In this document: positions 1,296 to 53,693 of the stretch, piece after piece
How the letters are laid out: the number at the start of each line of letters is the position of its first letter
Position numbering within the stretch: the first letter of the stretch is position 1
From: Luzula sylvatica
Taxonomy: Eukaryota; Streptophyta; Magnoliopsida; Poales; Juncaceae
Assembly (NCBI GenBank): GCA_946800325.1
Contig: OX326957.1
Span: 64,335,570 to 64,399,569 of the forward strand
DNA: 64,000 nt
Direction: 5' to 3'
Position numbers and translations under genes: made by a program
Notes under the pieces: generated by a model
The model's database searches: none
What the model was told of the DNA's origin: nothing
The model's input: the letters and a program-made list of their open reading frames with translations, nothing else

Positions 1296-2299
1296 TGAAG
1301 GAAATACAATTTCAGGATCAACCGTAAAAGTATACACAAGGATAAACGAATGTAAGCGTACATTCGTGGTCATATCTTTCAGTAGGAAAATTCAATTTGA
1401 ATGGTTCAAATTGGGTTAGATAGATAATAAGATTATCTACAACCTTCATATAGAAATATATTTCATATGAATGAAGTATCAGTGTCGTTTCTATGAAATA
1501 CCGAAAGGGTGCAACAGTATGACATACAGTTAGTAAAACAGTCATAACGTTTGCATACGAACTCCAATTGGGCCAGGCCAAATTGGACTGTGTAGATAAT
1601 AAGATTATCTACAACTTTCGTGTTGGGTAATTTTCTGTCAGAGAAATGTACCAATTTCGTATGGACAGAATACTGGACAGATTCATGCAACTTTCTGTGT
1701 GAAAGAGTGTATATTGGATATACATGTCTTTTGGCCCATCCTAATCCTATGTGATATAAATAGGATAATTCTCTCTCATCTGGTGTGGTTCATTCAGTCC
1801 AATTCATTCAATATATTCCAGAAAATTGTGAGACAAATTTCTAGAGAGTGAAAGGGTGTAAAAGAGAGAAACCGTGAAAAGATGTTTTCCGGTATAGAGA
1901 ATCAAACAATCGAGCAAGTTCGCCGGTGCATCGTCTAGGCAGTTGCACCCGCGACCGACGTCTTACGAGTCAAGGTGGATACGTGTAGAGGAGCAACAAT
2001 TGGGGCTCTCTCGGTTGTGATCGATTCGGACGAGTAATTTCAGTCGGAGACGAATTCGAGTGAACCGGCAACGAACGGTGAAAGACGCGTGGTGTGGGAC
2101 GCGCGGATTGTCACCAACGTGACACGAAAGAAGAATAGCAATCAACCCTTCGTGTGCAATCAATTTTGCACTGGTATGAATCTAATCTTCTTATTTGCAT
2201 CGTACCCTTCGAAGTCATGGCGTGATCTCGGGAATTGGGGAAACGGACCGGGCCTACATATCCGCTGCGCGGGCCCGGGGCCGGGTAGAATACCCAACA
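1296..2299 (+). repeat. 5' LTR of A1
   Basis: 1004 bp, from TGAAGGAAATAC to TACCCAACA. It contains a TATA box at 1755-1763 and lies one base before the primer-binding site. It pairs with the LTR at 8548-9551. Confidence 0.95.
1755..1763 (+). promoter_or_regulatory. TATA box of A1 LTR
   Basis: TATAAATAG in the LTR, repeated at 9007-9015 in the 3' LTR. It is followed by pyrimidine-rich DNA, as expected at a U3/R boundary. Position and sequence fit an LTR promoter; activity is not shown. Confidence 0.6.
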
Positions 2300-2300
2300 G

Positions 2301-2312
2301 TGGTATCAGAGC
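2301..2312 (+). other. Primer-binding site, initiator tRNA-Met type
   Basis: TGGTATCAGAGC directly follows the 5' LTR with one intervening base. This is the standard plant LTR-element sequence complementary to the 3' end of initiator tRNA-Met, and it fixes the plus-strand orientation. Confidence 0.95.
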
Positions 2313-2615: not shown

Positions 2616-2619
2616 CATA

Positions 2620-3110
2620 GTCGGTTATAACGGACCTGTAGTTCAGTTATAACGGAAGTGTTCCGTTGTAACGGACTAGGAGTTCGGTTGTAACGAATCT
2701 TGTATAGGATACGAGGATGCGGAGATGCCTTTTGGTCGGTTATAACAGACCTGTAGTTCAGTTATAACGGAAGTGTTCAGTTATAACGGAACTATGGTCA
2801 GTTATAACGGAAGTGTTTCTGGATTTTGATCCAGAATTCGCAGTTTGGTCAGTTATAACGGAACTATGGTCAGTTATAACGGAAGTGTTCAGTCATAACG
2901 GAACTTTTGTCAGTTATAACGGAAGTTTTTCTGGATTTTGATCCAGAATTCGCAGTTTGGTCAGTTATAACGGAACTCTGGTCAGTTATAACGGAAGTGT
3001 TCAGTTATAACGGAACTTTGGTCAGTTATAACGGAATTTTTTCTGGATTTTGATCCAGAATTCGCAGTTTGGTCAGTTATAACGGAAGTTTAGTCAGTTA
3101 TAACGGACTA
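2620..3110 (+). repeat. Phased palindromic array, TATA core (A1 leader)
   Basis: About 18 units of CAGTTATAACGGA or close variants such as CCGTTGTAACGG. Within clusters the units start every 20-21 bp. Clusters are separated by a spacer containing GGATTTTGATCCAGAATTC, which begins near 2821, 2932 and 3045, giving a higher-order period of about 112 bp. The full-palindrome form is TCCGTTATAACGGA. The array sits between the primer-binding site and the first coding relics. Confidence 0.92.
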
Positions 3111-4720: not shown

Positions 4721-5350
4721 AGATGACAAAATGCATCATTCTCCAAAGATTGGAGAAAGATTCAACGAATTATTGGAAATTACATTAAGATGTAAAAAAT
4801 CCGATAAATTTCGAGGCAAGAGGAGGCTATTGGTATTTTGTTACGTTTACGGACGATTAAAGTAGATATGATAATATCTGTTTAATGCGTGCCGCAACGG
4901 AGATTTTTTGAAAGGTTCAAAGAGATTCAAAAACAAAATACAAAATCGACTTAGCAAGAAAATCAAAGCCCTTTTGATAGGATCGAGGAGGCAAGTATTT
5001 GAGCTACGCAATTCGATAGGATCGAAGAGGCGATATTTGAGTTATAAATATTGATTATCATTCATGATTGTGAAATCGTTTCACGATTATTTTCATTTCG
5101 GAACATTGAGATGTGTCCGAAAAGAGGAATTGAACGCATGTTGGACATGGTTCGATAAATGATAAGTCAAACGGATCTCCCAAAAATATTTTGGGGATAC
5201 GCCCTTGAAACAGCGGCACTAATGAATGGTTGCATATATGATATGGACCATAAACCTTCTAATCGGTACAAAAGACACCATATGAGATATGGATCGGAAT
5301 GGTTCCGAAGTTGTCATTTATACAGATTTGAGGATGTGAGTATATTTTGA
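4721..5350 (+). pseudogene. Integrase relic of A1
   Basis: The clearest part is 5159-5350, whose translation starts MISQTDLPKIFWGYALETAA. This is the late copia integrase segment that follows the catalytic core. Upstream (about 4840-5150) the integrase core is recognisable only as scattered words with many stops. It matches the minus-strand segment near 38600-38800 of A2. Confidence 0.78.
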
Positions 5351-5879
5351 AATTTGTTTCGATTAAACTCAATCCCAAATCTGAAAATTGTTCGTTTATG
5401 ATATATCCTTAATGAAACTAAAGGGTATTAGTTCTAACGTCCCGACGAAAATGAGATTTTCGTGGCTCGAAGAGATGACTTCTTGGAGGAGGACATGATG
5501 CACACAAGTTGGGAACTTGATTTCGCTTATCTCTATGCGGGCTAGTGGGAGTAGAATAAATCTCGAAAGAGTTCGAGATCTGAAAAATGAATATTGTACC
5601 GATGAAAGTTGACACGACTTCATCAAGAGTCGATGAATACAAGTCGAACACACAAAGGAATTTTTATAGATCAAGTAGGCTATATATCATACGCCGATAA
5701 ATACGGATTTATCGTGGCTAATGATGATAGATTGATATCATATGATGATTCGATATCCTACAATGATGCTATGAAAAGTTGATTCCACATGACATGGTGT
5801 CATGAAATCTGAGATTCAATCCGTGTACATTATCAAGTTTGGAACTTGATTCAATCACTTTCTGGGTTAGACTCATGAA

Positions 5880-6360
5880 ATGTGAATGGGTTTTCAAGGT
5901 GAAGAACCTACATGGATAGGAATTTGCATATATGCAAAGCGAGGCGCGCAGCGAAGAGTTTCAAGTAATTCATAGTCAGACTATGAAGAAACGTTTTCGC
6001 ATGTTGCCATGCTTTCACATTCTCGAAATTCTGCTTACCATGGTCGCATATTATGACTATGTGATATGGCAAAATGGATGTTAAAACCGAATTTCTTGAC
6101 AGAAATTTTATGAAAGGGTGTGTACTTGACACAACCTTACGGTTTTTTCGATTCATAAGAATCGGGGATAGGATATGCACGCTTTAATGATCCATATGAT
6201 GGATTAGAAAAAGCTTCTGGGAATTGGAATATTCGTTTTGACGAAGTTATAAACTGTTATAACATTGTCGAAACGAATGGAAAACTTTGTGTACACATGA
6301 AGGTTAGTGGGAGTCGCGTTATATTTCTTGTAACGACACAAAATTTAGGCGAGACCGCTT
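5880..6360 (+). pseudogene. Reverse transcriptase relic of A1
   Basis: From 6074 the plus strand reads MDVKTEFLDRNF, the copia RT motif around the first catalytic aspartate. Near 6225-6250, in another frame, it reads NWNIRFDEVI, which lies further along the same domain. Frameshifts and stops separate them, and no YVDD box is readable. A2 has the same pieces at 37648-37866 on the minus strand. Confidence 0.78.
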
Positions 6361-8530: not shown

Positions 8531-8547
8531 GAAATTGAGTGGGAGAC
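8531..8547 (+). other. Polypurine tract of A1
   Basis: GAAATTGAGTGGGAGAC lies immediately upstream of the 3' LTR. The equivalent tract of A2 (35666-35687, reverse strand) also contains GAGTGGGAGAC, supporting its role as the plus-strand primer. Confidence 0.85.
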
Positions 8548-9551
8548 TGAAGGAAATACAGTTTCAGGATCAACCGTAAAAGTATACACAAGGATAAACG
8601 AATGTAAGCGTACATTCGTGGTCATATATTTCAGTAGGAAACTCCAATTGGAATGGTTCAAATTGGGTTAGATAGATAATAAGATTATCTACAACCTTCA
8701 TATAGAAATATATTTCATATGAACGAAGTATCAGTGTCGTTTCTATGAAATACCGAAATGGTGCAACAGTATGACATACAGTTAGTAAAACAGTCATAAC
8801 GTTTGCATACGAACTTCAATTGGGACAGACCAAATTGGGATGTGTAGATAATAAGATTATCTACAACTTTCGTGTTGGGTGATATTCTGTCAGAGAAATT
8901 TACCAATTTCGTATGGACATAATACTGGACAGATTCATGCAACTTTCTGTGTGAAAGAGTGTATATTGGATATACATGTCTTTTGGCCCATCCTAATCCT
9001 ATGTGATATAAATAGGATAATTCTCTCTCATCTGGTGTGGTTTATTCAGTCCAATTCATTCAATATATTCCAGAAAATTGTGAGACAAATTTCTAGAGAG
9101 TGAAAGGGTGTAAAAGAGAGAAACCGTGAAAAGATGTTTTCCGGTATAGAGAATCAAACAATCGAGCAAGTTCGCCGGTGCATCGTCTAGGCAGTTGCAC
9201 CCGCGACCGACGTCTTACGAGTCAAGGTGGATACGTGTAGAGGAGCAACAATTGGGGCTCTCTCGGTTGTGATCGATTCGGACGAGTAATTTCAGTCGGA
9301 GACGAATTCGAGTGAACCGGCAACGAACGGTGAAAGACGCGTGGTGTGGGACGCGCGGGTTGTCACCAACGTGACACGAAAGAAGAATAGCAATCAACCC
9401 TTCATGTGCAATCAATTTTGCACTGGTATGAATCTAATCTTCTTATTTGCATCGTACCCTTCGAAGTCAAGGCGTGATCTCGGGAATTGGGAAAACGGAC
9501 CGGGCCTACATATCCGCTGCGCGGGCCCGGGGCCGGGTAGAATACACAACA
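8548..9551 (+). repeat. 3' LTR of A1
   Basis: 1004 bp, the same length as the 5' LTR and nearly identical. It is followed by the TCCAC target duplication at 9552-9556. Confidence 0.95.
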
Positions 9552-10248
9552 TCCACCGTGAGTCGGAGTTCGTCGGTCGCGGGTGCAACTGCCTAGACGC
9601 TGTACCGGCGAACTTGCTTGATTAGATCGATTCTCTACACCGAGAAAAACTCTTTTTTCTCGATCTTTCTCTCTTCACACTCTTTCACTCTCTTGAAAGA
9701 TGTCTCCTTATATTTCTGGATTATTCTGAATAATACCATAGATTGGTTTGAATGATCTGGTCCAGAGAGAGAGAGAAACATCCTATTTATATCATATAGG
9801 ATAAGGATGGGGCAAAAGGCATGTATATCCAATATACACCCTTTCACACAGAAAACTGCAGACACCTTTCAGTATTCTGTTGAAACGAAAATATTAAATC
9901 GTTCCAACCGACTTTGAACATTCACGAAAGTTGTCGATAATCTGATTATCTTTCCAACCCAATTTGGCCTGGCCCAATTGGAGTTCGGATGCGAAAGTTA
10001 CGGACGGTTTAATAACTGTATGTCAAACGGTCGCACCCTTTCGGTATTCCATTCAAACGACACTGATACGTCGTTCAAATAAACAATATTTCAACATGAA
10101 AGTTCTAGATAATCTCATTATATATCTAACCCAATTTGAACCAACAAAATTGGATTTTCCTACTGAAAGTTATGACCACAAATGTACGCTTACATTCGTT
10201 CATCCTTGTGTACACTTTTACTGTTGATCCGAAACTGTATTTCCTTCA

Positions 10249-12095
10249 TTGTAGAAATTTGCTTGTGTTAGTATTCATTTAAGAATTTTTTGACGAAAAG
10301 ATGATAATTGGTTATTTTCCCCATTGTAGAAATCTTCTTTGCATTTTTTAGAAAAAAATGATAATTGATTTTTTTGAAGGAGTTAGACTGCACTTTATTG
10401 CACTTTTGCGAAGTTTTTGAAAAAATTAGAAATTAGCTTGTGTTTGTCTTCAATTACGAAGTTTTCGTAGGAAAGATGAAAATTGGTTATTTTTCTCTTG
10501 TTAGACATCTATTTTGAAATTCATTAGAAAAAAAGGATAACTGATTTTTTGAAGCAGTTAGACTACATTTTTTTGGTATTTTTTGCGAAATATAAAAAAA
10601 AATAGAAATATATTTGTGTTAGACTTCGATTACGGACTTTTTTGAGAAAAATATCAAATTTAAGTATTTTTCTCATGTTAGACTTCAATTTTTGATTTTT
10701 TTAGAAATTTAGGACAATTTAATTTTTTTAAGGTGTTCAACTTAGCTTTATTTACTTTTTGCAAAATTTTAGAATAAAATAGAAATTTTCTTGTTTTAGT
10801 CTTCAATTACTGAGTTTTTTTAGGAAAACATGAAAATTGGTTTTTTTGCTCATGTTAGACATCTATTTTAGATTTTTTAGAAAAATAGGATAATTTATTT
10901 TTTGAGGATGCTAGACTACACTTTTTGCTTTTTTGCGAAATTTGAAAAAAAAAGAATAGAAATATGCTTTTTGTTAGTATTCAATTAAGAAGTTTTTTTT
11001 TTTGGTAAACATGAAAAATGAGTATTTTGATCATGTTGATCAACTATTTTGCATTTCATAGAAAAATAGGATAATTGCTTGATTCAATGTGTTAAACTAC
11101 ACTTTTTGCATTTTTGCGAAATGTTTGAAAACAAGAGAATTTTGCTTGTATTAGTCTTCAACTACGGAGTTTTTTGAGAAAACATGAAAATTAATTATTT
11201 TGCTCATGTTAGACTTCATTTTTTAAATTTGTTGGAAAATTAGGATAATTTATTTTTTGAAGGTGTTAGACATCAGTTTTTTGCATATTTTGTGAATTTC
11301 TTTTAAAATAAAAATTTGCTTATGTTAGTCTTCAATTACGGAGTATTTTGAGGAAAATATGAAATCGATTATTTTGGTATTATTATACATATATTTAGGC
11401 ATTTATTATAAAAATAGGATAAATTAATTTTTGTAAGGAGTTAGCCTTCTCATGATGCATTTTCGCAAAATTTTCGAAAAAATAGAAATTTCCTTTTTTT
11501 AGTCTTCAATTACAGAGAGTTTTGAGAAAAACATGAATGGTTATTTTACTCATCTTAGACAACTATTTTATATTTTGTAGAAAAATATGATAATTTTTTT
11601 TAGGGTTTTAAACTACACTTTTTACATTTTTGCGCAATTAAAAAAAATAGGAATATGCTTTTGTTAGTCTTCAATTCAGGAGTTTTTTTGGAAAACATAA
11701 ATATGGAGTATTTTTCTCATGTTAGACTTCAATTTTGAATTTTATAGAAAATAAGATAATTGTTTTTTTTTTACTTCTACTACGGAGTTTTGTGAGGAAA
11801 AAATGAAAAATGGTTATTTTTGCTCATATTTGAGAAAAATAGGATAATATATTGTCTGAAGGTGTTAGACTACACTTTATGCATTTTTTGAATTTTTTGA
11901 AAAAAAAAATAGAAATTTGCTTTTGTTAGCCTTCAATTAATGATTTTTGTTTTTTGGAAAATATGAAAATTGAGTATTTTCCTCATAACTTCAAGCTTGG
12001 AATTTTTTTGAAAATAGGATAATTGATTTTGTTTTACTTGATGTAAGGACATTATTGAGGAAAACACGGAAAATTTGTTATTTTGCACATGTTAA
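10249..12095. repeat. ~175-bp satellite, middle block
   Basis: About ten monomers. The recurring CTTCAATTACGG-like landmark occurs near 10447, 10622, 10798, 10977, 11152, 11327, 11499 and 11665, giving periods of 166-179 bp. No gene is present. The block ends at the TTCGGGTCG element. Confidence 0.9.
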
Positions 12096-15718: not shown

Positions 15719-16800
15719 CGTGTTAGACATCTATTTTGTATTTTTCAGAAAATAGGATAGTACATTTTTTGAAGATGTTAGACTATACTTTTTGCATTTT
15801 TTTAGAAATTTTGGAAAAATCAGAAATTTATTTTTGTTATTCTTCAATTAAGGAGTTTTTTTTTCGAAAACATGAAAATGGAGTATTTTCCTCATGTTAA
15901 ACTTCAATTTTGGTATTTTTTTGGAAATAAGATAATTTATTTTTTTTATTCCCATTACGGAGTTTTTTTGGAAAAAAAAAAATTGGTAAGTTTGCTCCCT
16001 CTAGACATCTATTTTTTTTTTATAAAATATGATAATTGATTTTTCGATGGTCTTAGACTATATTTTTTGCATTTTGGCAAAAGTTTTGAAAAAAAAATTG
16101 AAAATTACTTGTGTTGGTCTTCAATTATGGGGTTTTTTTTTAGGAAAACATGAAAATTGAGTATTTTGCTCGTGTTTGAGTTCAATTTTTTGTATTTTTT
16201 TAGAAAATAATATAAATGATTGTTTTGAAGGTGTTGGAATATTTTAACTTTTTTTGCAATTTTTTTGAAAACAAAATAGAAAATTTCTTATGTTGATCTT
16301 CAATTACGGAGTTTTTGGAAGAAAACATGAAAATTGCATATTTTTCTCATTAGATTTCAATTTTGGAATTTTTTAGAAAAATAGGATAACTCATTTTTTT
16401 GGGGTGTTAGACATCACTTTTTGCATTTTTCGCGAAATTTTTTGAAATTTGTTTCTGTTAGTCTTCAATAACGCATGTTTTTTATGAAAATATGAAAATT
16501 CAGTATTTTTCTCAAGTTAGACTTTAATTTTGGTATTTTTAGAAATATAACATAATATATTTTTTTAATGTGTTAGACGTCTTGCAGTATTTGCGAATTT
16601 TTTAAAAAATATATAGAAATTTTATAGTGTTAGCCTTCAATTACAGAGTTTTTTTACGTAAACATGAAAATTGATTATTTTGCTCATGTTATACATTTAT
16701 TTTGTATTTTTCTATAAAAATAGGATAATTGATTGTTTTAAGGTGCTAAACATTCTTTTTTGCATTTTTCAGAAATTCTTTTAAAAATTGAAATTTTCTT
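15719..16800. repeat. ~175-bp satellite, right block
   Basis: Continues the same monomers seen at 1-940 and 10249-12095, then decays into ordinary AT-rich DNA near 16800. Confidence 0.88.
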
Positions 16801-19436: not shown

Positions 19437-21513
19437 TCAAACTTGATCATGAACTGTGCCAAAACCAGAAAAAGTTTCACCAACTTGAGGAATTATGAGA
19501 TCATATAATCCTCCTCCTTGGTTTTGACTTGTATTTTCCCATTGTAATTGGAAGTCACCATAAATACTTGAATCTCCAAATCCGGAAACTAGATTTCCCG
19601 TGCAGGATTCTTCATTTTGTGCCGAACCATTGCTGAATACCTCACTATGACTAGTATGGAATTTCGAATCTATACATTGGGTATAATTCATATGATCAAA
19701 CTCGAACCAATCCGCAAACATAATTTTTGGCATTTGTGTTTGAATTGGCATGTTAGCGAATTCAATACTATTAGTCGTCTCTATCATGGTCGGACTCGAG
19801 TCAGGAGAAGTGGATTCGGTACCCATTTCGCAGAACTCCGGTTTTGCGATTATTTGAGTATAGTTGTTTTCTTGGACCAAGTCGATCGAGTTCGGGTTTT
19901 GATCATTGTCCGATACCGTGGATTTGCTCGATGAATCGTTGGAATTGGATTCTTGGATTTTTTGGACTCGTTTCTTCAGATACGAGTTCCAGTGATTCTT
20001 CACCTCGTTGTCGGTTCGACCTGGTAGATGCTTTGCAATTTGAGACCACCTATGTTATAAAATTATTAGGTTTTTGTTTGAGAAAGGACACGTTATAACA
20101 AGCATTTAATTATATATATATGGAATATAATTTACAAAAACTTGTTATATGATAATGCTTGGCTACAGTAAGGGAGTACATGAAATATTAAGAAAAATGA
20201 AGATTGGCCAATACATTTGCTTGCACATGCCATCTAGCATATTTTGTTCATAAAAATGGTATTTAATGTGATCATATTGACCTTGTAGAAATAGTCTATG
20301 CCTTGTGTAGATGAAGAAATAATATATATCTTTTGATTAGTGAAATATCTTACTTTATTGTTGGACAGCTAATTAGTCTAACATGCATTGAATTGGTTAT
20401 TGTTTGATAATACATTTATATATTAGAATTGCTAGAATAGTTCAACTTGCAGGACAATTCCACCGACGAAATTAGGTTTAATGAAGTGATTAAGACAAAA
20501 AAATGTACTAGCTAATTGCCCTCTCTTTAAATATTGTTTCTTACAAAATAGGGCTGATATGGCTATATAGAATTGGTTAAATAATTATGACTGTAATTAA
20601 GGGTTATAATCTTCAGAAAAGGTTGTGATAGGAATCATATATGATAGTATTTTTTATGTCATAATCAAGCTACGCCAACAAAGTCTTAATTATGTAACAT
20701 CAAGCCAGCTCTTTTTCTTTTTCTCTTTTTCATGATCGATTCTTATTTTTCTTTTTCATTTATTGTCGACAACAATTTTTCTTCCTATACGTTACAAAAA
20801 TCTTGATAATTAAGAAGACGAACAAATATTACAAAATAAAATAGGGTTTGCTTTTTGAAGCAATAATAGAAGCACGCCGTTATAATTAAGAACATGTCAA
20901 ATAAATTCTAGAAGGCTATTTTCTATACTATGGCTTCGAAAAGAAAGCCTAGCAAATATGACTTTTTATGCCAATGGCATGTACACTGATAATTAATTCA
21001 ATAAAATTCATTTATTGAAAAGACAAACGAGCTTTCACATTAAAGACTTCGAGCACCCCACAATTAATTTGTAATTTGGACAAAAATAAGAGCATTTTTA
21101 AGTAAATTTGGTGTAAGAAATAAACTTACTTGTTTCCAAGCATGGCGTGAAGGTTCATCACTTTATCTTCCTCCTCTCGCGTAAACATGCCGTGCTTCAA
21201 ACCCGGCCTAAGATAATTGATCCATCTCAGCCTACAACTCTTTCCATTTCTTTGCAATCCTGTCAAAATTAAGAACAAACCCTAATTTACCAAATTGTAC
21301 TACTAGCTACTAATATATTTCTCACGGCATTTAGCACAAAATGAGGACTAAAGTAGGGAAAATATAATGACCTGCTTTGATGGGAACAGAGCTCCAGCAG
21401 CCATGGCCATGGCGGAGGATGTAGTCTCTGAGACGTTGGTCCTCCTCAGGCGACCATAAGCCTTTCCGATAAATGGCCTTTGGTTTCTCACACCCTTTGC
21501 ACCCTATACCCAT
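19437..21513 (-). CDS. LAF1-like: R2R3-MYB transcription factor, LAF1/MYB18-like
   Basis: Three exons on the minus strand: 21513-21372, 21259-21130 and 20049-19437, joined at GT/AG borders; 885 nt, 294 residues. I start at the ATG at 21513 ([12 protein letters not shown]) rather than the upstream in-frame ATG at 21528, because R2R3-MYBs begin close to R2. R2 (about residues 16-66) reads [27 protein letters not shown] and [13 protein letters not shown]3 (about 68-117) has [27 protein letters not shown] and [12 protein letters not shown], with the usual non-Trp first position. Exon borders fall at the typical R2R3-MYB places. [18 protein letters not shown] and [11 protein letters not shown] resemble the LAF1/MYB18-19-45 clade; LAF1 promotes phytochrome A signalling in Arabidopsis. 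The C-terminus is acidic and Ser/Asn-rich, plausibly an activation domain. Intron 2 is long (1080 bp). Acts in the nucleus. Family certain, clade likely. Confidence 0.95.
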
Positions 21514-26741: not shown

Positions 26742-27639
26742 GGTCTTCTATTTAGATCTTAGATTTTCTTAATTTTTCATAGTTTATGTGATTTATTAGA
26801 AAAAAAATTCCAAACCCTCGAAACAAAGATAGAAAAAGAAGAAGAAAAGAAAGAGAGAAGAAGAAGAAGAAAGAAAAGAAAGAGGGGACTGGCGAAAGAG
26901 AGTAAATGAAAAAAGTGCCCACATGTACACAGTGTCTCCTCGGGACTAACGGTGACAGACATGCACTTTTTCACCGGACTCTCTGGTGAAAGAGCTTAAT
27001 GTGCTTTACCCCGTGATTAAGACCCAAATTAACCTATATACTCTTTCGCCAAACCCTCTGGCGAAAGTCCAATTTCTTGTTGTTTAATTTAGACCTAGAG
27101 GGGGGTGAATAGGAAGTCCTAAGGTCCACTTTTCGCGGTAATGGAATACAATTACAATTTGGGCGGAAGCGTAAATAAATTAGAGAAAGAAATACAATAC
27201 TGAAACAAATAACACGCGATATTTGTTTACGGAGTTCGGTAGGTGGTTGCTTTGTAGCTTTAACTCACCGGCTACTGGCTCAATCGACTGACTCGATTGA
27301 TTGCATGTACCTATGTCTCCGGGGTTTCCTTGCGCCTTTTCGGCTTTCGATTGAATACCCAACTCAAACAATTACAAGGTTTGCCTTGATCGATTTACAC
27401 GAATTTATCGATCAATGGCGGGCTTTACAATTAGTAACTAGCCTATTACAATTTACTACTAACGAACTAGTCGTGATCGGTCACGCAAGTTGGGAATCGT
27501 TTAGTAGTGGATTCGAAATTGGATCTAATAATCTCTAAGAATGTTTAGATGATTAAGCTCAAGATTTAAAGCTAGGATTCTCTCTTTTGATTGGAAAAAT
27601 ATATTAGTTAGGATCACATGAGAGAACGAGGGATTGGTT

Positions 27640-27649
27640 CTATTTATAG
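27640..27649 (-). promoter_or_regulatory. TATA box of solo LTR copy A
   Basis: CTATAAATAG on the minus strand, about 40 bp downstream (in element sense) of the last palindromic unit. This places the array in the upstream promoter (U3) position. Confidence 0.65.
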
Positions 27650-27689
27650 AACACATAGACCCTTCCCTTAATATGTTTTTTCTGTATAG

Positions 27690-28240
27690 TCCGTTATAAC
27701 TGACCTGAGGTCCGTTATAACGGACTCAAAGTCAAACTAGCCGTTACAGGCAATATATTCGAAAATTTCATAGTCCGTTATAACCGAGTTTAGGTCCGTT
27801 ATAACTGACCTACTCCGTTACAACTGAGTTTAGGTCCGTTATAACCGACCTCTTCCTGTGACTTCACTTCAGATTTATTCTGTGGTTCCGTTATAACTGA
27901 GAAACTTCCGTTACAACGGTTAGTATATGTCCGTTACAACGGATTGGTGATTCCGTTACAACGGATGATTGGTTATTCTGAAGTGAGTTCACAAGTCCGT
28001 TATAACTGAGTTTATGTCCGTTATAACTGATATACTCCGTTACAACGGACTTGAGGTCCGTTATAACGGACATGCTGTTATTAACAACTATTGTTGAATG
28101 TCCGTTATAACTGAGCTGAGTTCCGTTATAACTGACAGTATGTCCGTTACAATTGACATGAGGTCCGTTATAACGGACATGCTATTTTTAACAGTATTCA
28201 TGTATGTCCGTTATAACTGAACTGAGGTCCGTTATAACCG
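27690..28240 (-). repeat. Phased palindromic array, TATA core (solo LTR A)
   Basis: About 22 units of TCCGTTATAACTGA, TCCGTTATAACGGA or TCCGTTACAACGGA. Unit starts such as 27691, 27712; 27775, 27796, 27815, 27836; 28102, 28123, 28144, 28165; and 28208, 28229 are 19-21 bp apart. Several units are perfect 14-bp palindromes. Longer gaps separate clusters. Confidence 0.93.
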
Positions 28241-29232
28241 ACATGCTTCTGGAAATCTGTTTTATTATTTCATCATTTTAATGGATTTCGAATATATTTC
28301 TTTGACTAATCTTGAGCTTAATAATTCATAAGCAAGTTTAGGGATACCTATAAGTTGTTTTGGTGATTTATGTGATACCCCAACTTGCGGAATCATTGAT
28401 GTCTTGACTTGATCATGCGTTTTCGTGCCATCGTTTCTTCACCGTCTTGACTTCCGACGTCTTCATTCTTCTTTTGATCCTTTTGTGGGTTACGTCTTCT
28501 ATCTCTATAAATGTCACTCCCGCAAATAGATTAGTGGTATCGACATTTTTTTGAGATAATCAAACCCTAGGAAATTTGAACCAACATTTCTTTCGCCAGG
28601 TTCTTTGGCGAAAGAGCTAGATTTGCAATTTGAATAACTTGCTAGCTATTCTTACAAATTGAGCTTTTGATAAGGCTATATGTCAAGAAAATTCAAAAAT
28701 AAGAGCGTAATAAATGACCGTTTTATTTCTGTTTTTTCAATTTGACTCTATTTGTTCAAATCGTATTCGTACACTCCAAACGCACGCCGCATAAGATATA
28801 AATTGTTATACAAAAATTATAAATCTAGTCCCAAAAAAATTATAAAATATGTCACTCATGTAAAAAAATTTATATGTTAAAATATTATCATACTTACATA
28901 TAAAAAAGATAAATTTATTGTATTTTAAAAAATATATATATATCATACATCTAAAAATATATGATATATCTAAAAAAACATAACAAATAAATATATATTA
29001 AACATGTAAAAATGTATAACATGTATTGTATTAAAGAATGTGTATCATACATCTATAAAGATGTAACAAATAAATATATATCAAAATTATACATTTATAA
29101 AAAAATATAAAACATGACGGCGTGCGTTTTGGAGTGCACAAAATTCGGTTAATATTGAAAAAAAATTAAAATGTCACGTGTCGTTCTCTTATTAATGGAA
29201 TGCACGTAGAGTGTACACCTTTAAAGTACACA

Positions 29233-32880: not shown

Positions 32881-33389
32881 ATCTAACTTAATCAAAACCT
32901 ACACGTCACCTTTCAATTTCACAACTCGACTAGATGTTACATGGCTGAGTGGATGAAAATAACTATCATTTTTTTTATAGAAAATTAAATAATCAATAAC
33001 TTCATGATAAATCATTAATAAAAATAAATTATAACTTCTGAACTAATAAAAAATAGAGCTTTAAATAATCAAAATAAAAAATAAAATTTATGCATATACT
33101 AGTATTTTAACCCAAACATAAGAAATGATAATATTCTTATCAAAATATATTATCATAACAAAAAGTAAAAAAAAATGAATTTATTAATAATCTAAGAAAA
33201 TTTATATAGACAATTAATCGATAATGACATAAACTCAGTACAAATATAATATTTTGATTGTTGTCCCGAGAAGGCCTAGAGGGGGGTGAATAAGTTTATT
33301 TGATGAAGTTTCAAACTAAATTAAAATATATAACTATATGATAACTTTTAATCTTGATATTTTTAAGTAAGATGTTGTGCTAATTAACT

Positions 33390-33580
33390 AAAGTACTGAA
33401 AGTAAAGAATAGTAAAAGTAAAGTACTGAAAAGTAAAGTATGGATAGTAAAGTGCGGAAAGTAAAGAAATGGAAAAAAAATATGAAAAGCAAAGTACGAA
33501 AAATAAAATACGGGAAAGTAAAGTACAGAAAATAAAATAATGTAAAGTAAATAAGAGAAAAGTAATTACTGGAAAGTAAA
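33390..33580. repeat. AAAGTA-rich imperfect tandem repeat
   Basis: Irregular units of AAAGTACTGAAAAGTAAAG and shorter variants inside solo LTR B. Open frames on the minus strand here are artefacts. Confidence 0.8.
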
Positions 33581-33675
33581 ACGTAGTTTCTAATGCGTAT
33601 GAATATTTCTTGATTACGAATGAATACACAACTTAAGGAAAGTCCACTACTGCAAATGTGGTGGTTTGATACACA

Positions 33676-33705
33676 CACAACAACAACAACAACAATAACA
33701 GAGGG
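33676..33705. repeat. (AAC)n microsatellite
   Basis: A run of CAACAACAACAACAACAAT. Confidence 0.9.
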
Positions 33706-34249
33706 GGTATAGCAACTTCGGGTTGCAAGAACAAAAACAAAACAAAAAACAAATAAAAGTAACTATAGAAAAGTAAAGACATGACACCAAATATGATAAC
33801 GAAGTTCGGCTAAATGTGCATACGTCTCCGGGAGTAGTCTTTCTGTCACAAACAACGTGATGAACCTTCTATAGTTTCGATTACAAAAGGATTAACAAGG
33901 GCGTAGAATGTTTACAACAAATAACTATCTCTACTAACAACGTATATAACAAACGATCCAGACAGCCATACGATCTCTCAAGAACGCTCTTACGGATTAA
34001 GGCTAACCTAACTATGAGTATTTAGATATGTGGAACTAGCCTATTGAGAATTGGGTATAGAAAAAATATGGGTGCTTTCTCTATTCCGACAGCTACTTCT
34101 CTCAATTTCTCTCTCTATTCGAATGTTTTGGTGTGTAGAATGAAGGGGGTATGGGTGCCTTCTATAGGGTGAAAGGAGGCAGCCACCAGGGTCGAACTAT
34201 CAGCCTGAACCCTAGACCAACAACTAACGACAAGCTTGAACAAACCTGG

Positions 34250-34300
34250 TCCCGGCCATTTTAGCACGTCCGGGCATCATTTTTTGCCGTCCGGACGGAT
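34250..34300 (-). repeat. Short phased palindromic array, CCGG core (solo LTR B)
   Basis: Three units centred near 34253, 34271 and 34292: GGTCCCGGCC, CACGTCCGGGCA and GCCGTCCGGACGGA. The third contains the perfect 12-bp palindrome CCGTCCGGACGG, and the last two centres are 21 bp apart. The position relative to the LTR TATA-like box matches the TATA-core array of copy A. Confidence 0.75.
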
Positions 34301-34596
34301 AGTGTATTTGGGTCATTTCCAGGGATGTTTTGGGATTTTGGTTTTGTCGAGTCTTTGGATCAACATATGAGTATGTTTGGGGTATAACCAAGGTTGTGTT
34401 GTGATCGTATGTGTCTTCAAATCTTCAAGTCATCTACGGTGATTTTCGTGTCTCGCACGCGTCTTCTACGATATGTTCTTCAAGTCTTCTACGTGTAATC
34501 CTTCGAGTATGGTCGTCTAATTTTCATGGCATATGATATCTCCAAGTCTTCTATGTGTTTGTTTCTTCGTTCACGTGATCTTCGATTAACCGGTTC

Positions 34597-35665
34597 TGAA
34601 GGGAATTATCCCGTCTCCGGGCCCGCGCAGCGGATATGAAGGCCCGGTCCGGTTCCCAAAATCCAAGATCACGCTTCTATATCGAGGGTACGATGCAAAG
34701 TAGGATAGACGATTACTAGCGTGAAATTGATCACGCACGACGGGTTGATCGCTCGCATCCTTCTCTTCCTTCGGTGTCACGTTGGTGACTAGCCCGTACG
34801 TCCCATACCGCACGTCTCCCACCATCTTGACACGTTTTCGGTTGTCTTCGCGCGTTCCATGCCCGCACTCTTCCACAGCCCGTTACTCGATTACTTCTCC
34901 GGTTTGATCACAACGAAGAGCCACATATGTCGCTCCTCTACCCGTATCCACCGTGAGTCGTAGCACCTCGGTCGCGGATGCATCTGCCTAGACGATGCAC
35001 CGGCGAACTTGCATGATTGCGTTTCGATTCTCTAAGACGGAGAAAACTCTTTTCTCCTCTTTTCTCTTTCTCTCAATCTCTTCGCACTCTTTCATCATCT
35101 GATTAGAGTCTCATAATTTCTGGATAAAATACATTAATAATCTGCACTGAACTTATGAGAGAGAGAGAGAAACATCCTATATATACTCCATAGGATAAGG
35201 ATGGGTCAAAAGGTATGTATATCTTCTATACACCTTTTCAAACAGAAAACTGCATACACCCTTTCAGTATTCTGTCAGAACGAAAATATCAAATCGTTCC
35301 AACCGACTTTGAACATTTACGAAAGTTGTAGATAATCTTATTATCTTTCTAACCCAATTGGATCCAGCCCAATTGGAGTTCGGACCCGAAAGTTACGCCC
35401 GGTTTACGGACTGTATGTCAAACCGTCGCACCCTTTCGGTATTCCATTAGAACGACACTGATACGTCGCTCAAATGGAAAATCTTACAACATGAAAGTTC
35501 TAGATAATCTCACTATCTAATTAACTCAATTTTAATCATTCAAATCGGAGTTACCTACTGAAAGTTATACCAGTTTTACTAATCTGTTTAGTATACCCAC
35601 GAACGCGTACGTTCGTTTGTCCTACGTACCATTTTAGCGTTGATCCAAAACTGTATTTCCTTCAG
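34597..35665 (-). repeat. 3' LTR of A2
   Basis: 1069 bp with inverted ends TGAAGGGAATT and ATTTCCTTCA. Frames that cross it (34586-34876) are not genes. Confidence 0.92.
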
Positions 35666-35687
35666 TCTCCCACTCAGTTTCAGATCT
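35666..35687 (-). other. Polypurine tract of A2
   Basis: On the minus strand it ends ACTGAGTGGGAGAC next to the 3' LTR, matching the A1 tract. Confidence 0.85.
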
Positions 35688-37599
35688 TCCTAAAAGGTAC
35701 TCATGTATATCACATATACACTATATCAGAGAATCTAGCCCGCGTATCATATACGCTAAAGCCATGCACATCCTATGTGCAAAAACTTGCAATCAAGCCC
35801 GACATAGTACGACTCGTTGTGTGACCGTGTAGGTTCGTTTAACGATGGCAGTAGGCCGTTTCCATGGCACTACAAGCCCATGAGCGGGATCTAGTCACTC
35901 CATCATGGCTACCCATGTTAAAACGAAAAATGATTGTGATCATTGTGCCTATCTCGAATAGCGGTTACTAGTTCTCTTGTTTGCGATATCCGTTAATCAA
36001 AAGACATGGTGGTAGTCATCCTTATGTCTTGATTAACTATACTTATTTCCCGATTCCGAATTGAGTTAACAAATTACAATCGATATTAACTTTTAATATC
36101 ATTGACTCTGGCCAGAGATTTCGTTAATCAATTCATCGAGCGGCCTAAGAGATATCTCTTCCTTTCGGAATAAACAATTCCTATCTTGGAGACTCATATT
36201 GAATTCCGTGTTTCGCACAATACCCAATGATGACCGTTTTGGCCTCCTGTTACGGTAGGCGTAAGGTCATATCAAAGCATTGTGTTACGCACGTAACGCA
36301 ATCAATGGTCCCCTCAAGTGTGAAGAACCTAAAACCCCATCCGTCGCAAGTTCATCTATAATGACTAAACCATGTCATGGTCTCGCGGCTTTGGTCATAT
36401 CCAATACATGTAACCTAACATATATCTACGTTCCCGATTCGACAAGCACCTTGTCCCATGATTAGCAAAACATAATCATCTCCTCGGCAAACGTACTAGT
36501 GTACACGTCCAGTCTATTATCTGATAATAGAAATGCTTATCTCTTAAGCAAACTGATCCGCGACTAGGGATGTTTAGAAATGACACTTTAAGTGTGACGG
36601 TTTTGCTGCACATAATCATCAATTATGCCGGCATCCACACAAGTTCAAATCAGGGTTCATGTAACAATCATATTACACAACCCGCACACAGTTTTCATAT
36701 AAGGTGAATGCATATTAATTTAAGTAAACAAATTTTTTAAAAGGGATGCATTCATATGGACTAAGTATTTGGGTGATACAACGTTTACCTATGGGTATCT
36801 CCATACCCATAACCTGCGAGGACTATCGTATTTAGATAACTACACTCTACTCTCTTCTTCCTCCTCTAGGTATCTTCATACCCATAGTCATCGCATGACA
36901 GTCATGCGCGACTAGAGAGAGCGGCTTTGTAAACGGGTCCGCACGTTCCCGCTAGTGTTAATCATCATCTATATTGGAACATTTCCAATATCTCCGATCA
37001 CATCTTTTCACAAAATTTCATGGATCAAATGAAATTTTTCTGAGTATTGGCTAGAAGTGGTTGTGACCTCGGCATTTGTGACTTGTACTATTGCGTCTCA
37101 CGCAATAAACAACCATAAATCCGATAACTCGTGACTACTAGAGTTTGGTCTTGTATCCTCGATCCATACCACTTCCTTTTGCGATTAATAACCACAATAT
37201 ACTCGCCTCCGTAAATAGAATCACTAACTATTGGTCTTGTGGAACCTTTCCACATAACCGTGTTTTCATTTAAGCAAAACATGTGCACACTTTGTGATCG
37301 AAAGTCGTGCTACATATTTCGACGTGCTAAATCTTTGGAAACTGTTGTTGTTATAATTCTTTATAACCAACACGTCTTCCACACCATTATAGATAAAATA
37401 AAATCCTGAATTCTTTCGCAAAGTATTCAAGGATAAACTTCACCGCTATCAATACAAATCTCGATGGGTTTAAATACACATAACAATTATGTATATATAT
37501 GTATAACCATTATACATTCACAAGAGTTAGTCTCATGTAATCGCATTACATTCAAACTCGTGTGATTCCCATGAATTTTATTGATGGTGAATTAGACGC
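35688..37599 (-). other. A2 interior, decayed 3' part
   Basis: Corresponds to A1 6361-8530. No reliable RNase H frame. Short frames at 36280 and 37088 are incidental. Confidence 0.6.
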
Positions 37600-37866
37600 T
37601 CTATGTCGTTACAAGAAATATAACGCGGCTCCCACTAACCTTCATGTTTACACAAAGTTTTCATTCGTTCCGACAATGTTATAACAGTTTATAACTTCCT
37701 CAAAACGAATATTCCAATTCCGAGAAGCTTTCTCTAATCCATCATATGGATCCTTAAAGCATGCATATCCTATTCCGATTCTTATGAATCGACAAAACCG
37801 TAAGGTTGTGTCAAGTACACGTCCTTTAATAAAATTTCTGTTAAGAAATTCGGTTTCGACATCCAT
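37600..37866 (-). pseudogene. Reverse transcriptase relic of A2
   Basis: The minus strand reads MDVETEFLNRNF from 37866, then ASRNWNIRFEEVINCYNIV. These are the copia RT first catalytic motif and a downstream conserved segment. Here they lie in one frame, while in A1 they are frameshifted. The region between is shortened relative to a working RT, and the YVDD box is not readable. Confidence 0.8.
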
Positions 37867-38268
37867 CTTGCCACATCATATAGTCATTATATGCGATTAT
37901 GGCAAGCAGAATTTCGAGAATGGAAAAACATGGCAACATGCGAAAACGTTTCTTCATAGTCCGACTATGAATTGCATGAAACTCTTCGCAAAAAGCCTCG
38001 CTTTACATATATGCGTATTCCTATCCATGTAGGTTCTTCATCTTAAAAACCCACTCACGTTTCACGGGTCTAACCCAGAAAGTAATGAAATCAAGTTCTG
38101 AACTTGATAATTTACATTGATCGAATCTCAGATTTCATGACACCATGTCATGTGGAATCAACTTTTCATAGCATCCTTGTAGGATATCGAATCATCATAT
38201 GATTTCGATCTATCACCATTAGCCACGATAAATCCGTATTTACCCGCTTATGATATAGCCTACTTGAT

Positions 38269-38800
38269 CTACGAAAAATTCCTTTGTGTGTTCGACTTGC
38301 GTTCATCAACTCTTGATGAAGCCATGTCAACTTTCATCGGTACAATGTTCATTTTCAAATCTAGAACTCTTTCGAGATTTATTCTACTCCCACTAGCCCG
38401 CATAGAGATAAATGGCACCAAGTTCCAAACTTGTGCGCATCTAGTCCTCCTCCAAGAAGGCATCTCTTCGAGCCACGAAAATCTCATTTTCGTCGGGACG
38501 TTAGAATTAATACCCTTTAGTTTCCTTAAGGATAAACGAACAATTTTCAGATTTGGGATTGAGTTTAACCGAAACAAATTTCGAAATATACCCACATCCT
38601 CAAATCTGTACAAATGACCACTTCGGAACCATTCCGATCCATATCTCATATGGCGTCTTTTGTACCGATTAGAAGGTTTATGGTCCATATCTTATATGCA
38701 ACCATTCATTAGTGCCGCTGTCTCAATGGCGTGTCCCCAAAACATTTTTGGGCCTATTGACTTATCATTTATTGAACCATGTCCAACATGCGTTCATTTC
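38269..38800 (-). pseudogene. Integrase C-terminal relic of A2
   Basis: The 139-codon frame from 38688 starts MDHKPSNRYKRRHMRYGSEW. It continues the integrase tail seen in A1 at 5240-5350 (MDHKPSNRYKRHHMRYGSEW). The catalytic core lies upstream and is broken. This shows that both copies carry the same altered reading frames. Confidence 0.75.
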
Positions 38801-39179
38801 CTCTTTTCGGACACATCTCAATGTTCCGAATAAAGGCAATCGTGAAACGATTCCACAATCATAAATGATCATCAATATTCATAACTCAAATATCGCCTCT
38901 TCGATCCTATCGAAAGGTTTAGCTCAAATACTCGCCTTCTCGATCCTATCGAAAAGCTTTGATTTTCTTGCTTAGTCGATTTTGTATTTCGTTTTTGAAA
39001 CTCTTTGAACATTTCAAAAGTCTCCGTTTCGGCACGCATTAAATAAATATTTTCATATCTACTTTAACCGTCCATAAACGTAACAAAATACCGATAGCCT
39101 CCTCTTGCCTCGGAACTTATCGGAACATTACATCTAAATGTAATTTCCGATAATTCGTTGGATCTTTCTCCAACCTTTG

Positions 39180-39526
39180 GAGAATGATGCCCTTTGTCGT
39201 CTTGCCTAATAAATAAGTATCGCATTAATCAATCGAATCTAATTCGAATGATTCTAGCAATCCATCATATGGAATCTAGATACGCGAATCTCGTTTATAT
39301 GGCCAAGACGGCAATGCCAAAAGAGGCAATCAACCTCTTGGTTTAATCCTCCTCGGATTTCACCATTCTTTGAGTCATTAGTTTGGACAACTCTTTGTCC
39401 GAACTTTCTGTTTGGAAAACATTTTCCCAAAATACCCTTAGACCTATATTTCTTTCGATCCCGCCTTTGAATTAGAAGGACATCCACGCATCTGAATGTA
39501 TTGGATTCCTCGGATGCTCCAATCAT
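39180..39526 (-). pseudogene. GAG-pre-integrase relic of A2
   Basis: The minus strand (39526-39254) ends with the copia motif LFWHCRLGHINEIRVSRFH. It is open over a stretch that is frameshifted in A1. Beyond it, the TAA at 39225-39227 matches the A1 stop at 4696-4698. Confidence 0.82.
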
Positions 39527-40799
39527 CTCCTATTCAAATTTACATCGCATCTCATGCAACTCCGGGATCGACTTATCTATCGAATGCATATGATATTCGG
39601 TTACGAAGATCAAATCTCGTACCATCAACACACGAGTGTTAATCCAAGACCCATAAGGCATCTCAAAATTAACCTACTCTATGAGCCGCATTGAATCATT
39701 CAATGCGCTCTAGCTCTTGAAACTATTTCACGAGCGGTGTGTTTTACTTTCATATACACCCGAATTCTCAAAACAATTTTGAGAATATGCGTCTATACAT
39801 GCCACCACAAGGCACGTAATATTGTTCGATTCCTTTTTAAAGTTTATCGAACCCGGCTTTCTCTAAAGCCATAGCCTCTAGCCCTGAATCTGCCATATTC
39901 GTGTCCAACACATTCCTTTAAGTCTAAGAACTATTCTCTGACTATCAAGGTTAATCATGGCAATTCCGGCCCAAAAGCTATCTATCATATCGATCTCATC
40001 GATATATTTGGTGTTGCTAGAAAACATAATTCTAAACGGATGATGAAGATTAACTCCTAACCGTGCGTACTTAATCTATATGCTTATATGATGAATATAT
40101 GATAATGTTATTTTTATCGAATCGGTAACCCTCATACCGATACGGGACTCCAAGTCCATAACATCCAAGATCCATATATCACGATCCTCCCACAAGTTGC
40201 TTTGGCAGACGGGTGGAATCTCGCTATTTAGGTAGGATTATATCCAATCGCATCCAATGCGACTCTTGAACCTTTATAGGATTTCGGTGATGGATCGTAT
40301 CATATACAATCCCAGTTCCGTGTGTGCATCCTATCAATGCCCCGAACTCCAATCAAGTCGGCTTTGGCCTTAACCCTTATTGGATTGAACGGTTAAGTCA
40401 CAACCATACTCAACGTATCGTTCAAATAAACTACTCCAAGTCGGCTTTGGCCTTAACCCTTATCAGTCCTTATTTAACGCTTGCCATCCTGTCAATAACC
40501 ACAATAACCCATGTCGGCTTTGGCCTTAACCCATGTGAAATGTAGTACCAATCATAGTGGTTGTCAATATGGAAGGCATTTTCATGACTTAAATATTATG
40601 AGGGATCATGCCAATGCATGTTATATTTCGTGACATAATCATATTATATCACCATCACAAGATTTTCTAATGCATATGCACTATCTATGGAGACTAAATT
40701 ATTCTAAATAATAATTAAATAAATATGAAATAAATTGGTGCAAAGAATATGAATTTTCGAAGTGTGTAGTCAAAAACAAATCTGTCAACCAGGGGCTTG
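39527..40799 (-). other. A2 interior, gag region and leader
   Basis: Equivalent to A1 3111-4439, with no readable gag. Near 40350-40540 there are three copies of GTCGGCTTTGGCCTTAACCC, the inverted and diverged counterpart of the A1 repeat near 3410-3500. Confidence 0.6.
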
Positions 40800-41170
40800 T
40801 GCGTCATGATGCACCATAAGTTGCGTCATGATGCACTACCTCATGTAACTCTTTACACAGGATTTTTGTACAGTCCATCATGACTGACAGTTTGGTGCAT
40901 CTTGACTGACCAACATCAAAAACTTCCAAGGGCCCTAGCGTCATGACTCACCAAACGGTGCGTCATGACTGACAAATAGCCTCCGCTCGGTGCGTCATGA
41001 CTGACCGATCGGTGCGTCATGACTGACCAAAGGCACCCCCGCGAATCCGTGGCACCCGCTCGGTGCGTCATGACTGACCGATCGGTGCGTCATGACTGAC
41101 CAAAGGCACCCCCGTGATTCCGTGGCACCCGCTCGGTGCGTCATGACTGACCACTGGTGCGTCATGACTG
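40800..41170 (-). repeat. Phased palindromic array, CATG core (A2 leader)
   Basis: About a dozen units of GGTGCGTCATGACTGACC or close variants. Neighbours are about 22 bp apart (40992 and 41014), in a higher-order unit of about 73 bp that includes CAAAGGCACCCCCG. Reverse-complemented, the unit is CAGTCATGACGC, parallel to CAGTTATAACGG in A1. It abuts the truncated 5' LTR directly. Confidence 0.9.
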
Positions 41171-42145
41171 ACGATGCAAAGTAGGATAGACGATTACCAG
41201 CGTGAAATTGATCACGCACGACGGGTTGATCGCTCGCATCCTTCTCTTCCTTCGGTGTCACGTTGGTGACTAGCCCGTACGTCCCATACCGCACGTCTCC
41301 CACCATCTTGACACGTTTCCGGTTGTCTTCGCGCGTTCCATGCCCGCACTCTTCCACAGCCCGTTACTCGATTACTTCTCCGGTTTGATCACAACGAAGA
41401 GCCACATATATCGCTCCTCTACCCGTATCCACCGTGAGTCGTAGCACCTCGGTCGCGGATGCATCTGCCTAGATGATGCACCGGCGAACTTGCATGATTG
41501 CGTTTCGATTCTCTAAGACGGAGAAAACTCTTTTCTCCTCTTTTCTCTTTCTCTCAACCTCTTCGCACTCTTTCATCATCTGATTAGAGTCTCATAATTT
41601 CTGGATAAAATCCATTAATAATCTGCACTGAACTTATGAGAGAGAGAGAGAAACATCCTATATATACTCCATAGGATAAGGATGGGCCAAAAGGTATGTA
41701 TATCTTCTATACACCTTTTCAAACAGAAAACTGCATACACCCTTTCAGTATTCTATCAGAACGAAAATATCAAATCGTTCCAACCGACTTTGAACATTTA
41801 CGACAGTTGTATATAATCTTATTATCTTTCCAACCCAATTGGATCCAGCCCAATTGGAGTTCGGACCCGAAAGTTACGCCCGTTTTACTGACTGTATGTC
41901 AAACCGTCGCACCCTTTCGGTATTCCATTAGAACGACACTGATACGTCGCTCAAATGGAAAATCTTACAACATGAAAGTTCTAGATAATCTCATTATCTA
42001 ATTAACCCAATTTGAATCATTCAAATCGGAGTTACCTACTGAAAGGTATACCAGTTTTACTAATCTGATTAGTATGCCCACGAACGCGTACGTTCGTTTG
42101 TCCTACGTACCATTTTAGCGTTGATCCAAAACTGTATTTCCTTAA
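41171..42145 (-). repeat. 5' LTR of A2, truncated
   Basis: 975 bp. It matches the left LTR from its base 34691 onwards, so the inner 95 bp (R/U5 end) is missing. The outer end reads TTTCCTTAA instead of TTTCCTTCA, a single change. Confidence 0.9.
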
Positions 42146-53647: not shown

Positions 53648-53690
53648 TATTCAATATATTGAATTTGGAATAAGCATGAGGGTCTAATGG

Positions 53691-53693
<3 letters not shown>

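Follow-up and report, generated by a model that had tools for sequence, protein, structure and literature searches.

How do retrotransposons of plants keep up with the regulators and the silencing of their hosts? We addressed this question using a 64,000-nucleotide stretch of the Luzula sylvatica genome (contig OX326957.1, positions 64,335,570 to 64,399,569; hereafter the window), in which LTR retrotransposons carry dense arrays of short dyad-symmetric sites. A sequence-only reading of the window had described four such arrays, each with fixed arms (CGT or AGT, then ACG or ACT) around an interchangeable, self-complementary 4-bp core, and had proposed that they bind a dimeric protein of variable specificity or offer a way to escape sequence-specific silencing. 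Analysis of the window and of copies found in a 445-Mb genome search suggests a different interpretation. We consider it somewhat probable (roughly 0.58) that these retrotransposon arrays represent clusters of cis-regulatory binding sites, MYB-type in one array class (TAAC), which undergo concerted evolution and have been exchanged as cassettes.

Three dyad arrays in LTR retrotransposons

Dense arrays of [AC]GT-N4-AC[GT] dyads were present at three places in the window, designated A1, E27 and A2. The framework occurs 15 times in the A1 array (13 sites with a self-complementary core), 16 times in the E27 array (11 such sites, the other five having the core TACA) and eight times in the A2 array, always with a self-complementary core. 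Because the rest of the window contains 24 occurrences, only three of them self-complementary, the three arrays lie far beyond chance expectation. The features concerned are listed below.

27078..28586, minus strand: E27, a solo LTR (TGTTGG...ACAACA) whose family is Sirevirus-like, ends taken from genome copies
27073-27077 and 28587-28591: exact target duplication TTTCT of E27
27691..28240, minus strand: E27 array, 20 dyads TC[N]GTTR-YAACGGA, at LTR positions about 346-896 of 1509 (550 bp)
27643..27648, minus strand: E27 TATA box CTATAAATAG (TATAAA at LTR position 939, ~43 bp downstream of the array)
1296-9551, plus strand: A1, whole element, target site duplication TCCAC
1296..2299, plus strand: A1 5' LTR, 97.8% identical to the 3' LTR
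2301..2312, plus strand: A1 PBS TGGTATCAGAGC
2622..3106, plus strand: A1 array, 18 units, mainly TCAGTTATAACGGA, in the 5' leader downstream of the PBS
8548..9551, plus strand: A1 3' LTR
34597-42145, minus strand: A2, whole element, sister of A1, inserted in the 34-kb LTR, target site duplication GGTTC
41171..42145, minus strand: A2 5' LTR, cut off at 41171 at the junction with the array
40801..41170, minus strand: A2 array, 12 units, mainly TCAGTCATGACGCACC, in the leader
34597..35664, minus strand: A2 3' LTR
34287..34298, no strand assigned: one perfect dyad, CCGTCCGGACGG, within the 34-kb LTR (which spans about 33259-34596 and is split by A2)

The orientation of A1 is fixed by its PBS. A2 lacks the end of its 5' LTR, the PBS and the first part of the leader; in 28 of the 40 scored matches to an A2 query, the LTR piece formed a match of its own, set apart from the array by some hundred bases. 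Two internal blocks of A1 and A2 have identities of 85.6 and 88.8%, and the arrays of the two elements occupy the same position, in agreement with the earlier proposal that they are sister elements with different cores at corresponding places; in element orientation, the unit is GGTCAGT-TATA-ACGGA in A1 and GGTCAGT-CATG-ACGCA in A2. We provisionally describe both as degraded, copia-like elements. The description rests on little more than the PBS and gag_pre-integrs matches and is weakly based, since the frames are full of stops and eight ORF pieces, searched separately, gave sub-threshold matches only, with gag_pre-integrs among them in two pieces.

The arrays of E27 and the 34-kb LTR had been placed upstream of a TATA box. 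Of the three confirmed arrays, only that of E27 has this position; those of A1 and A2 are in the leader, after the 5' LTR. The 34-kb site (34250-34300), proposed as the fourth array, was rejected as such, as it has one perfect dyad and two partial or degenerate copies of it. Among nine fetched relatives of the 34-kb LTR (from 30 matches), six contained scattered CGTCCGGACG-like dyads whose cores differ, as judged by eye, and three contained none. One sequence given as an example of the arrays, GCGTCATGACGC, is absent literally from the window, although it occurs in two genomic relatives (L097 and L101). E27 and the 34-kb LTR had also been taken for copies of one family; they show a weak alignment over ~200 bp only (local score 58, compared with a maximum of 44 among 100 shuffles).

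Arrays are composed of paired half-sites

A 14-bp unit, TC-N-GTTR-YAACGGA, was common to E27 and A1, which represent two different LTR families, and has the same polarity in both. It consists of two half-sites placed head to head with zero gap (TCNGTTR|YAACGGA); the form conserved in E27 is YAACNGA facing TAACGGA, and these head-to-head half-sites match plant MYB core consensuses. YAACNG fits 39 of 40 halves in E27 and 34 of 36 in A1 (73 of 76 in the window), in units that were themselves chosen by similarity to the motif. AACGG is followed by A in the present arrays, unlike in the MSA element, where a pyrimidine follows. Perfect 12-bp palindromes account for only 3 of the 20 E27 units.

Cores were then compared in 40 E27-family loci, including that of the window; these are the 40 scored of 1567 candidates and are biased to E27-like arrays because they were chosen by an array query. 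Their 685 framework sites had the cores TATA (425), TGTA (227), CAAG (22), TACA (6) and others (5), such that 260 of 685 are not self-complementary; excluding the CAAG sites, which represent a site outside the E27 array, about one third are still not self-complementary. Between the first bases of the left and right halves, association was not significant (Fisher p 0.10 for E27 and 0.48 for the TAAC arrays of the A family described below), the outcome predicted if either half-site accepts Y at this position. With cores so often non-self-complementary and halves unassociated, the conserved unit is the half-site and not the palindrome. Moreover, the E27-family cores step from TATA to TGTA to TACA by a single base each time. 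Non-palindromic cores and base-by-base mutation, which the sequence-only reading had named as evidence against a swapped core, were thus both found in E27, but they do not describe the TATA/CATG difference between A1 and A2.

Divergence among copies shows a footprint at the same positions. In an alignment of the 14 full-length LTRs among the 40 E27-family loci, half-site positions diverged by 1.0%, linkers by 4.5% and the remaining LTR by 2.5%, and none of 1508 shifted masks gave an equally low value; when the window copy was omitted, the corresponding values were 1.0, 5.1 and 2.4%. The positions that vary inside the footprint are those left free by the MYB core (N and Y): in 279 units of E27 copies, position 1 was A in 137, C in 93, G in 48 and T in 1, and position 5 was A in 205, G in 73 and C in 1. 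For the A family, 11 of 19 TAAC arrays and 9 of 17 TGAC arrays were aligned. The dyad centre diverged by 0.7% versus 2.9% in linkers for TAAC (0 of 503 shifts equally low) and by 0.4% versus 2.7% for TGAC (10 of 317). Whole TAAC units, at 3.0%, did not differ in this way from linkers (2.6%), and whole TGAC units, at 1.3%, lay between the linkers (2.4%) and the leader flank (0.9%); with all positions except N and R included, the values were 2.1% for TAAC (29 of 503 shifts as low) and 1.5% for TGAC (80 of 317). The CG positions of A-family units changed faster than linkers (4.6% in TAAC and 4.1% in TGAC), as in methylated DNA. The footprint is therefore strong in E27, and in the A family it holds at the dyad centre but not at the CG of ACGG.

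Spacing and helical phase

A spacing of about 21 bp had been assigned to all arrays. It is the modal value in E27 relatives (206 cases, the next commonest having 60), but spacings of 19-23, 32, 41-44, 51-52 and 63 bp were also found. In five arrays (E27, A1, A2, L077 and L081), spacings above 23 bp fall at 30-32, 41-44, 51-52 and 62-63 bp, and all 17 of them, with each value counted once per array, deviate by no more than 0.2 turn from a multiple of 10.5 bp, odd multiples included, such that the odd half-periods (30-32 and 51-52 bp) stay in phase. For the eight distinct values, some of the long ones being common by descent and 44 and 31 being left out as near 43 and 30, an equally good fit was obtained in 15 of 100000 random sets. 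A1 alone fits a period of 15.4 better than 10.5 (R 0.92 vs 0.80) and A2 a period of 9.8 (0.97 vs 0.83), and out-of-phase spacings occur elsewhere (25 in L052, 35 in L090, and 45, 66 and 88 in E27 relatives). What survives of the earlier description is that helical phase persists, in the five arrays phased, while the site sequence varies and is homogeneous within a copy, as seen in the 47 arrays tallied below. Because the units are in helical phase, proteins bound to them would be predicted to share one face of the DNA.

Three array types in one leader slot

A search with the A1 leader, in which 40 of 3073 candidates were scored, identified copies whose flanks match A1 and whose array differs. 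Together with the TGAC loci, which came from an A2 query (16 fetched of 40 scored) plus A2 itself, 47 A-family arrays were tallied: 19 of TAAC type, 17 of TGAC type (unit TCAGTCATGACGCACC) and 11 of a type designated CACCGG/CAACGG after its left and right halves (unit TCCGGTGCAACGGAC). The tallies are without L065 and L068 (right flank absent) and L067 (1352-bp insert); L080, L082, L102 and L104 were outside the analysis, and L001-L008 are duplicates of later loci. The arrays have 5-21 scored units, and 17 of the 19 TAAC arrays have 12-21 paired units. In two further copies, L079 and L085, other sequence fills most of the array slot and two TACA/TATA units are left.

Arrays were nearly homogeneous within a copy, and TATA and CATG cores occurred together in 0 of 47. 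Half-way units were found singly (CATA in A1 at 2890; TATG in L054 and L098), as were intermediates among YAAC halves (TGTA, TACA and TGCA in L059, L076 and L081; TGTA and TGCA in L073). The right half was TAACGG in 264 of 311 units of the TAAC arrays, with TAACTG as the commonest left half (162 of 311); in the CACCGG/CAACGG arrays, CAACGG was the right half in 84 of 93 units and CACCGG the left half in 76. The downstream-facing half is thus the stricter one in both types. The third type had TGACGC as right half in 181 of 239 scored hits, which include 22 linker look-alikes, and TGACTG as left half in 157. We discarded a separate 'TGCC' class in the TGAC arrays, because these 22 hits are look-alikes of CCGGTGCAACGG located in linkers and not a class of units.

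Arms are not fixed across these types: the CACCGG/CAACGG arrays alter the left arm (G for T) and not the core, and they are non-palindromic. When compared with the MYB core (YAACNG/CNGTTR), TAAC arrays fit, TGAC arrays have no fitting half-site, and CACCGG/CAACGG arrays fit in the right half only, so MYB proteins cannot account for every type. The sites are best read as protein-binding, with a specificity that would differ between array types.

A separate observation concerns the linkers of TGAC arrays (40801-41170 and most of L086-L101), in which CGGGTGCCACGG occurs; it differs at two positions from the CCGGTGCAACGG unit of another type. This look-alike is perhaps a relic of an earlier array.

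Probable exchange of arrays between retrotransposon backbones

Two pairs of copies illustrate the relationship between arrays and the elements that carry them. The left flanks of L069 and L062 are 96.6% identical, and those of L077 and L056 96.9%, over about 1.3 kb, with TAAC and CACCGG/CAACGG arrays set against each other in each pair, and the arrays themselves are 71 and 75% identical. Array identity was 71-81% in six between-type pairs versus 97-98% in four within-type pairs.

Flank trees were used to compare TAAC with CACCGG/CAACGG arrays; TGAC entered only via A2, in the first trees. The trees reported here omit L057 and A2, and the right-flank tree also omits L058, L072 and L077, whose flanks are interrupted. 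The left-flank tree (26 rows) required seven changes of array type (shuffled mean 7.5), and branches with strong support make at least three of them unavoidable. On the right flank, a tree of 23 rows required four, a number as small as this occurring in 23 of 500 shuffles (shuffled mean 6.1); array type is therefore clustered to some degree on this flank. A single origin of the CACCGG/CAACGG type was rejected for both flanks (AU p 4e-47 on the left and 5e-53 on the right). Array type, TAAC versus CACCGG/CAACGG, follows the tree of neither flank.

No array switch was seen in the E27 family, where all five flank-selected relatives fetched, each of about 250 bp and drawn from 40 that were scored, carried arrays of TATA/TGTA type. 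The linkers of CACCGG/CAACGG arrays in L066-L078 bear on this family, as 26 of 31 equal E27-family linkers in the opposite orientation, compared with 0 of 149 in TAAC arrays; the linkers in common are three related 9-mers.

These data point, tentatively, to the array as an exchangeable regulatory cassette. At least three types of different predicted specificity would use one leader slot and be swapped between near-identical backbones, the host factor changing while clustering, polarity and phase persist, and arrays may even have crossed between the E27 and A lineages; we regard this extended version as possible but doubtful. Gene conversion, or a switch of template between RNAs packaged together, is the probable route of any such swap between backbones and would be the ordinary one. 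Since alternative homogeneous arrays sit on backbones up to 97% identical, one genome would suffice to test how array type influences expression, silencing and tissue range while the remainder of the element hardly varies.

In another locus, L114, an E27-family array is broken from about position 160 by sequence resembling the start of the A-family LTR (TGAAGGAAATACAG...), i.e., one array family lies inside the array of the other.

Proposed function and alternative explanations

Plant MYB core consensuses include CNGTTR and YAACKG (PMC10741500), and AACGG, the MYB3R/MSA core, is bound by MYB3R3 (PMC8964727). Both halves of the E27 and A1 units fit the plant core (YAACNG = CNGTTR), with the half that faces downstream in element sense being strict, and it is from this consensus match that we infer MYB recognition. 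The E27 array could act as an upstream activating sequence of its TATA promoter and the A-family arrays, in the 5' leader, as downstream enhancers. Concerted evolution of the units would spread a changed half-site across an array, giving rise to the TAAC, TGAC and CACCGG/CAACGG types. For the kind of Sirevirus repeat described in 2010, the E27 footprint provides a precise prediction: paired YAACNGA half-sites on one helix face.

The symmetry might instead be maintained for pairing at the RNA level, either in hairpin transcripts feeding small-RNA silencing, a role put forward for the palindromes of maize Sireviruses, or in RNA dimerisation or packaging. The RNA of the arrays folds far better than dinucleotide-shuffled sequence (z of -11.2 in A1 and -8.2 in A2, with none of 100 shuffles matching either array), which keeps an RNA or small-RNA role a live rival. 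The A1 and A2 arrays are in the leader and should be transcribed, and in maize Sireviruses the LTR regions rich in palindromes are reported hotspots of sRNA mapping (PMC5311732). However, pairing is possible for the base facing G at mirror position 10 in a minority of units (94 of 279 in E27 copies and 33 of 197 in A-family TAAC arrays), and this base is A in 94 of 95 TGAC units; the CACCGG/CAACGG arrays have a G-A mismatch in their arms, and the E27 array is upstream of its TATA box. RNA pairing as the cause of the symmetry is disfavoured by these counts, and an RNA-level function appears unlikely overall. It is also rather improbable that the arrays are functionless by-products of tandem duplication and conversion, homogeneous for that reason and with the spacing and symmetry of a founding unit. 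The wide variation in A-family array length, the modal 21-bp spacing in E27 relatives (as slippage would yield) and the whole TAAC units that are not slower than linkers would all suit such an origin, but in the E27 arrays linker divergence is 4-5 times that of the half-sites, with N and R left free although conversion would homogenise those too. Similar conservation at the A-family dyad centre, odd half-periods that stay in phase and the occurrence of one 14-bp unit with the same polarity in two LTR families also argue against it.

The fixed-arm model of the sequence-only reading, with a single dimeric protein whose specificity varies, finds its best case in A1 and A2, where the outer arms are equal and TATA is replaced by CATG through two symmetric changes in nearly all units. 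Against it stand the many non-self-complementary cores of the E27 family, the unassociated halves, the changed arm of the CACCGG/CAACGG arrays and the differing cores in relatives of the 34-kb LTR. For E27 the model is largely refuted, and as a general account we consider it very unlikely. Clustered binding sites, of MYB type in the TAAC arrays, are our preferred interpretation.

Relationship to known retrotransposon repeats and MYB sites

The E27 family showed three of the four Sirevirus junction features that were tested. The 5' junction CA/ATTGG-TATCAGAGC is present as ACAACA|ATTGGTATCAGAGC in a relative (L012), PPT octamers are clustered before the LTR of another (L011; AGGGGGAG four times within 165 bp, the octamer letters having been deduced from substitutions described in PMC2829016), and the poly-C integrase signal was recognized by eye as TATTCACCCCCCTCTAGG near the 3' end of both E27 and the 34-kb LTR. 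The attachment site differs: AT/TG, with AT described in 20 elements (PMC2829016), is replaced in L011 (one copy) by AGGGGGAG-TT/TG. A1 does not have the Sirevirus junctions tested, since it has CAACA-GTGG-TATCAGAGC instead of ATTGG; its PPT region is GAGTGGGAGAC, and AGGGGGAG is absent from the last 600 bp. An internal ORF of the E27 family (piece L103), which we take to be gag-like, matched no family in a Pfam search and one unnamed protein in ENA.

The RM palindromes of Sireviruses are described as near-identical boxes in at least eight copies, forming a region of 300-500 bp in the upper LTR half, 200-400 bp in and upstream of the TATA box; they are located in LTRs and near the beginning of the ENV gene, and are reported to be Sirevirus-specific, with none in classic elements (PMC2829016). 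The E27 array is likewise palindromic, with at least eight copies in the upper LTR half upstream of TATA; its 20 units start at about LTR position 346, and its relatives share the junction motifs. A CGG-CCG signature is given for 12 of 13 Sirevirus RMs, Tnd-1 being without it (PMC2829016). The E27 unit is TCNGTTRYAACGGA and lacks this signature, having CCG-CGG with AAC half-sites, and the A-family arrays, unlike RMs, are in the 5' leader of an element without Sirevirus junctions. The RM section of that paper offers database matches and no tested binding protein, and it contains no spacings, half-site footprint or array exchange of the kind found here (PMC2829016).

Modular regulatory evolution and MYB regulation of retrotransposons are already known, the former from Tnt1 and the latter from Tto1 and, by motif, from Rider. 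In the account of the Tnt1 superfamily (PMC1838419), the regulatory region also diversifies fast, apart from the remainder of the element, and defines subfamilies, but the variants are whole U3 regions, whereas here homologous arrays occupy one slot and their type is changed in nearly all units. Tto1 is activated by the R2R3-MYB NtMYB2, and the tomato Rider LTR has two MYB motifs (PMC6762207); MYB core motifs in copia regulatory sequence are thus a shared feature, although Rider's two motifs differ from the paired units, 12-21 of them in 17 of 19 TAAC arrays, of the present elements. An MSA-containing promoter bound by MYB3R (PMC8964727) resembles the arrays in having clustered AACGG cores in both orientations, but it belongs to a host gene and has four cores versus dozens in a retrotransposon here. 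A literature search that covered titles and the beginnings of abstracts, with most subscription papers outside its scope, turned up neither arrays of paired MYB sites nor exchange of arrays in the leader of a retrotransposon.

Other features of the window

Additional repeats and coding sequences surround the elements described above. Satellite-like tandem repeats with units of ~170 bp form three blocks around A1 and beyond (46-941, 10252-12090 and 15721-16800), and A1 itself is inserted in an older LTR related to that of A2, in the opposite orientation (938-1295 and 9551-10248). A piece of an R2R3-MYB-like gene was detected at 19437-20054 on the minus strand (Pfam Myb_DNA-binding); we claim no link between it and the arrays. 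Finally, copia gag-pol frames with few interruptions are located at 53688-57760 on the plus strand and start in an (AT)n run.
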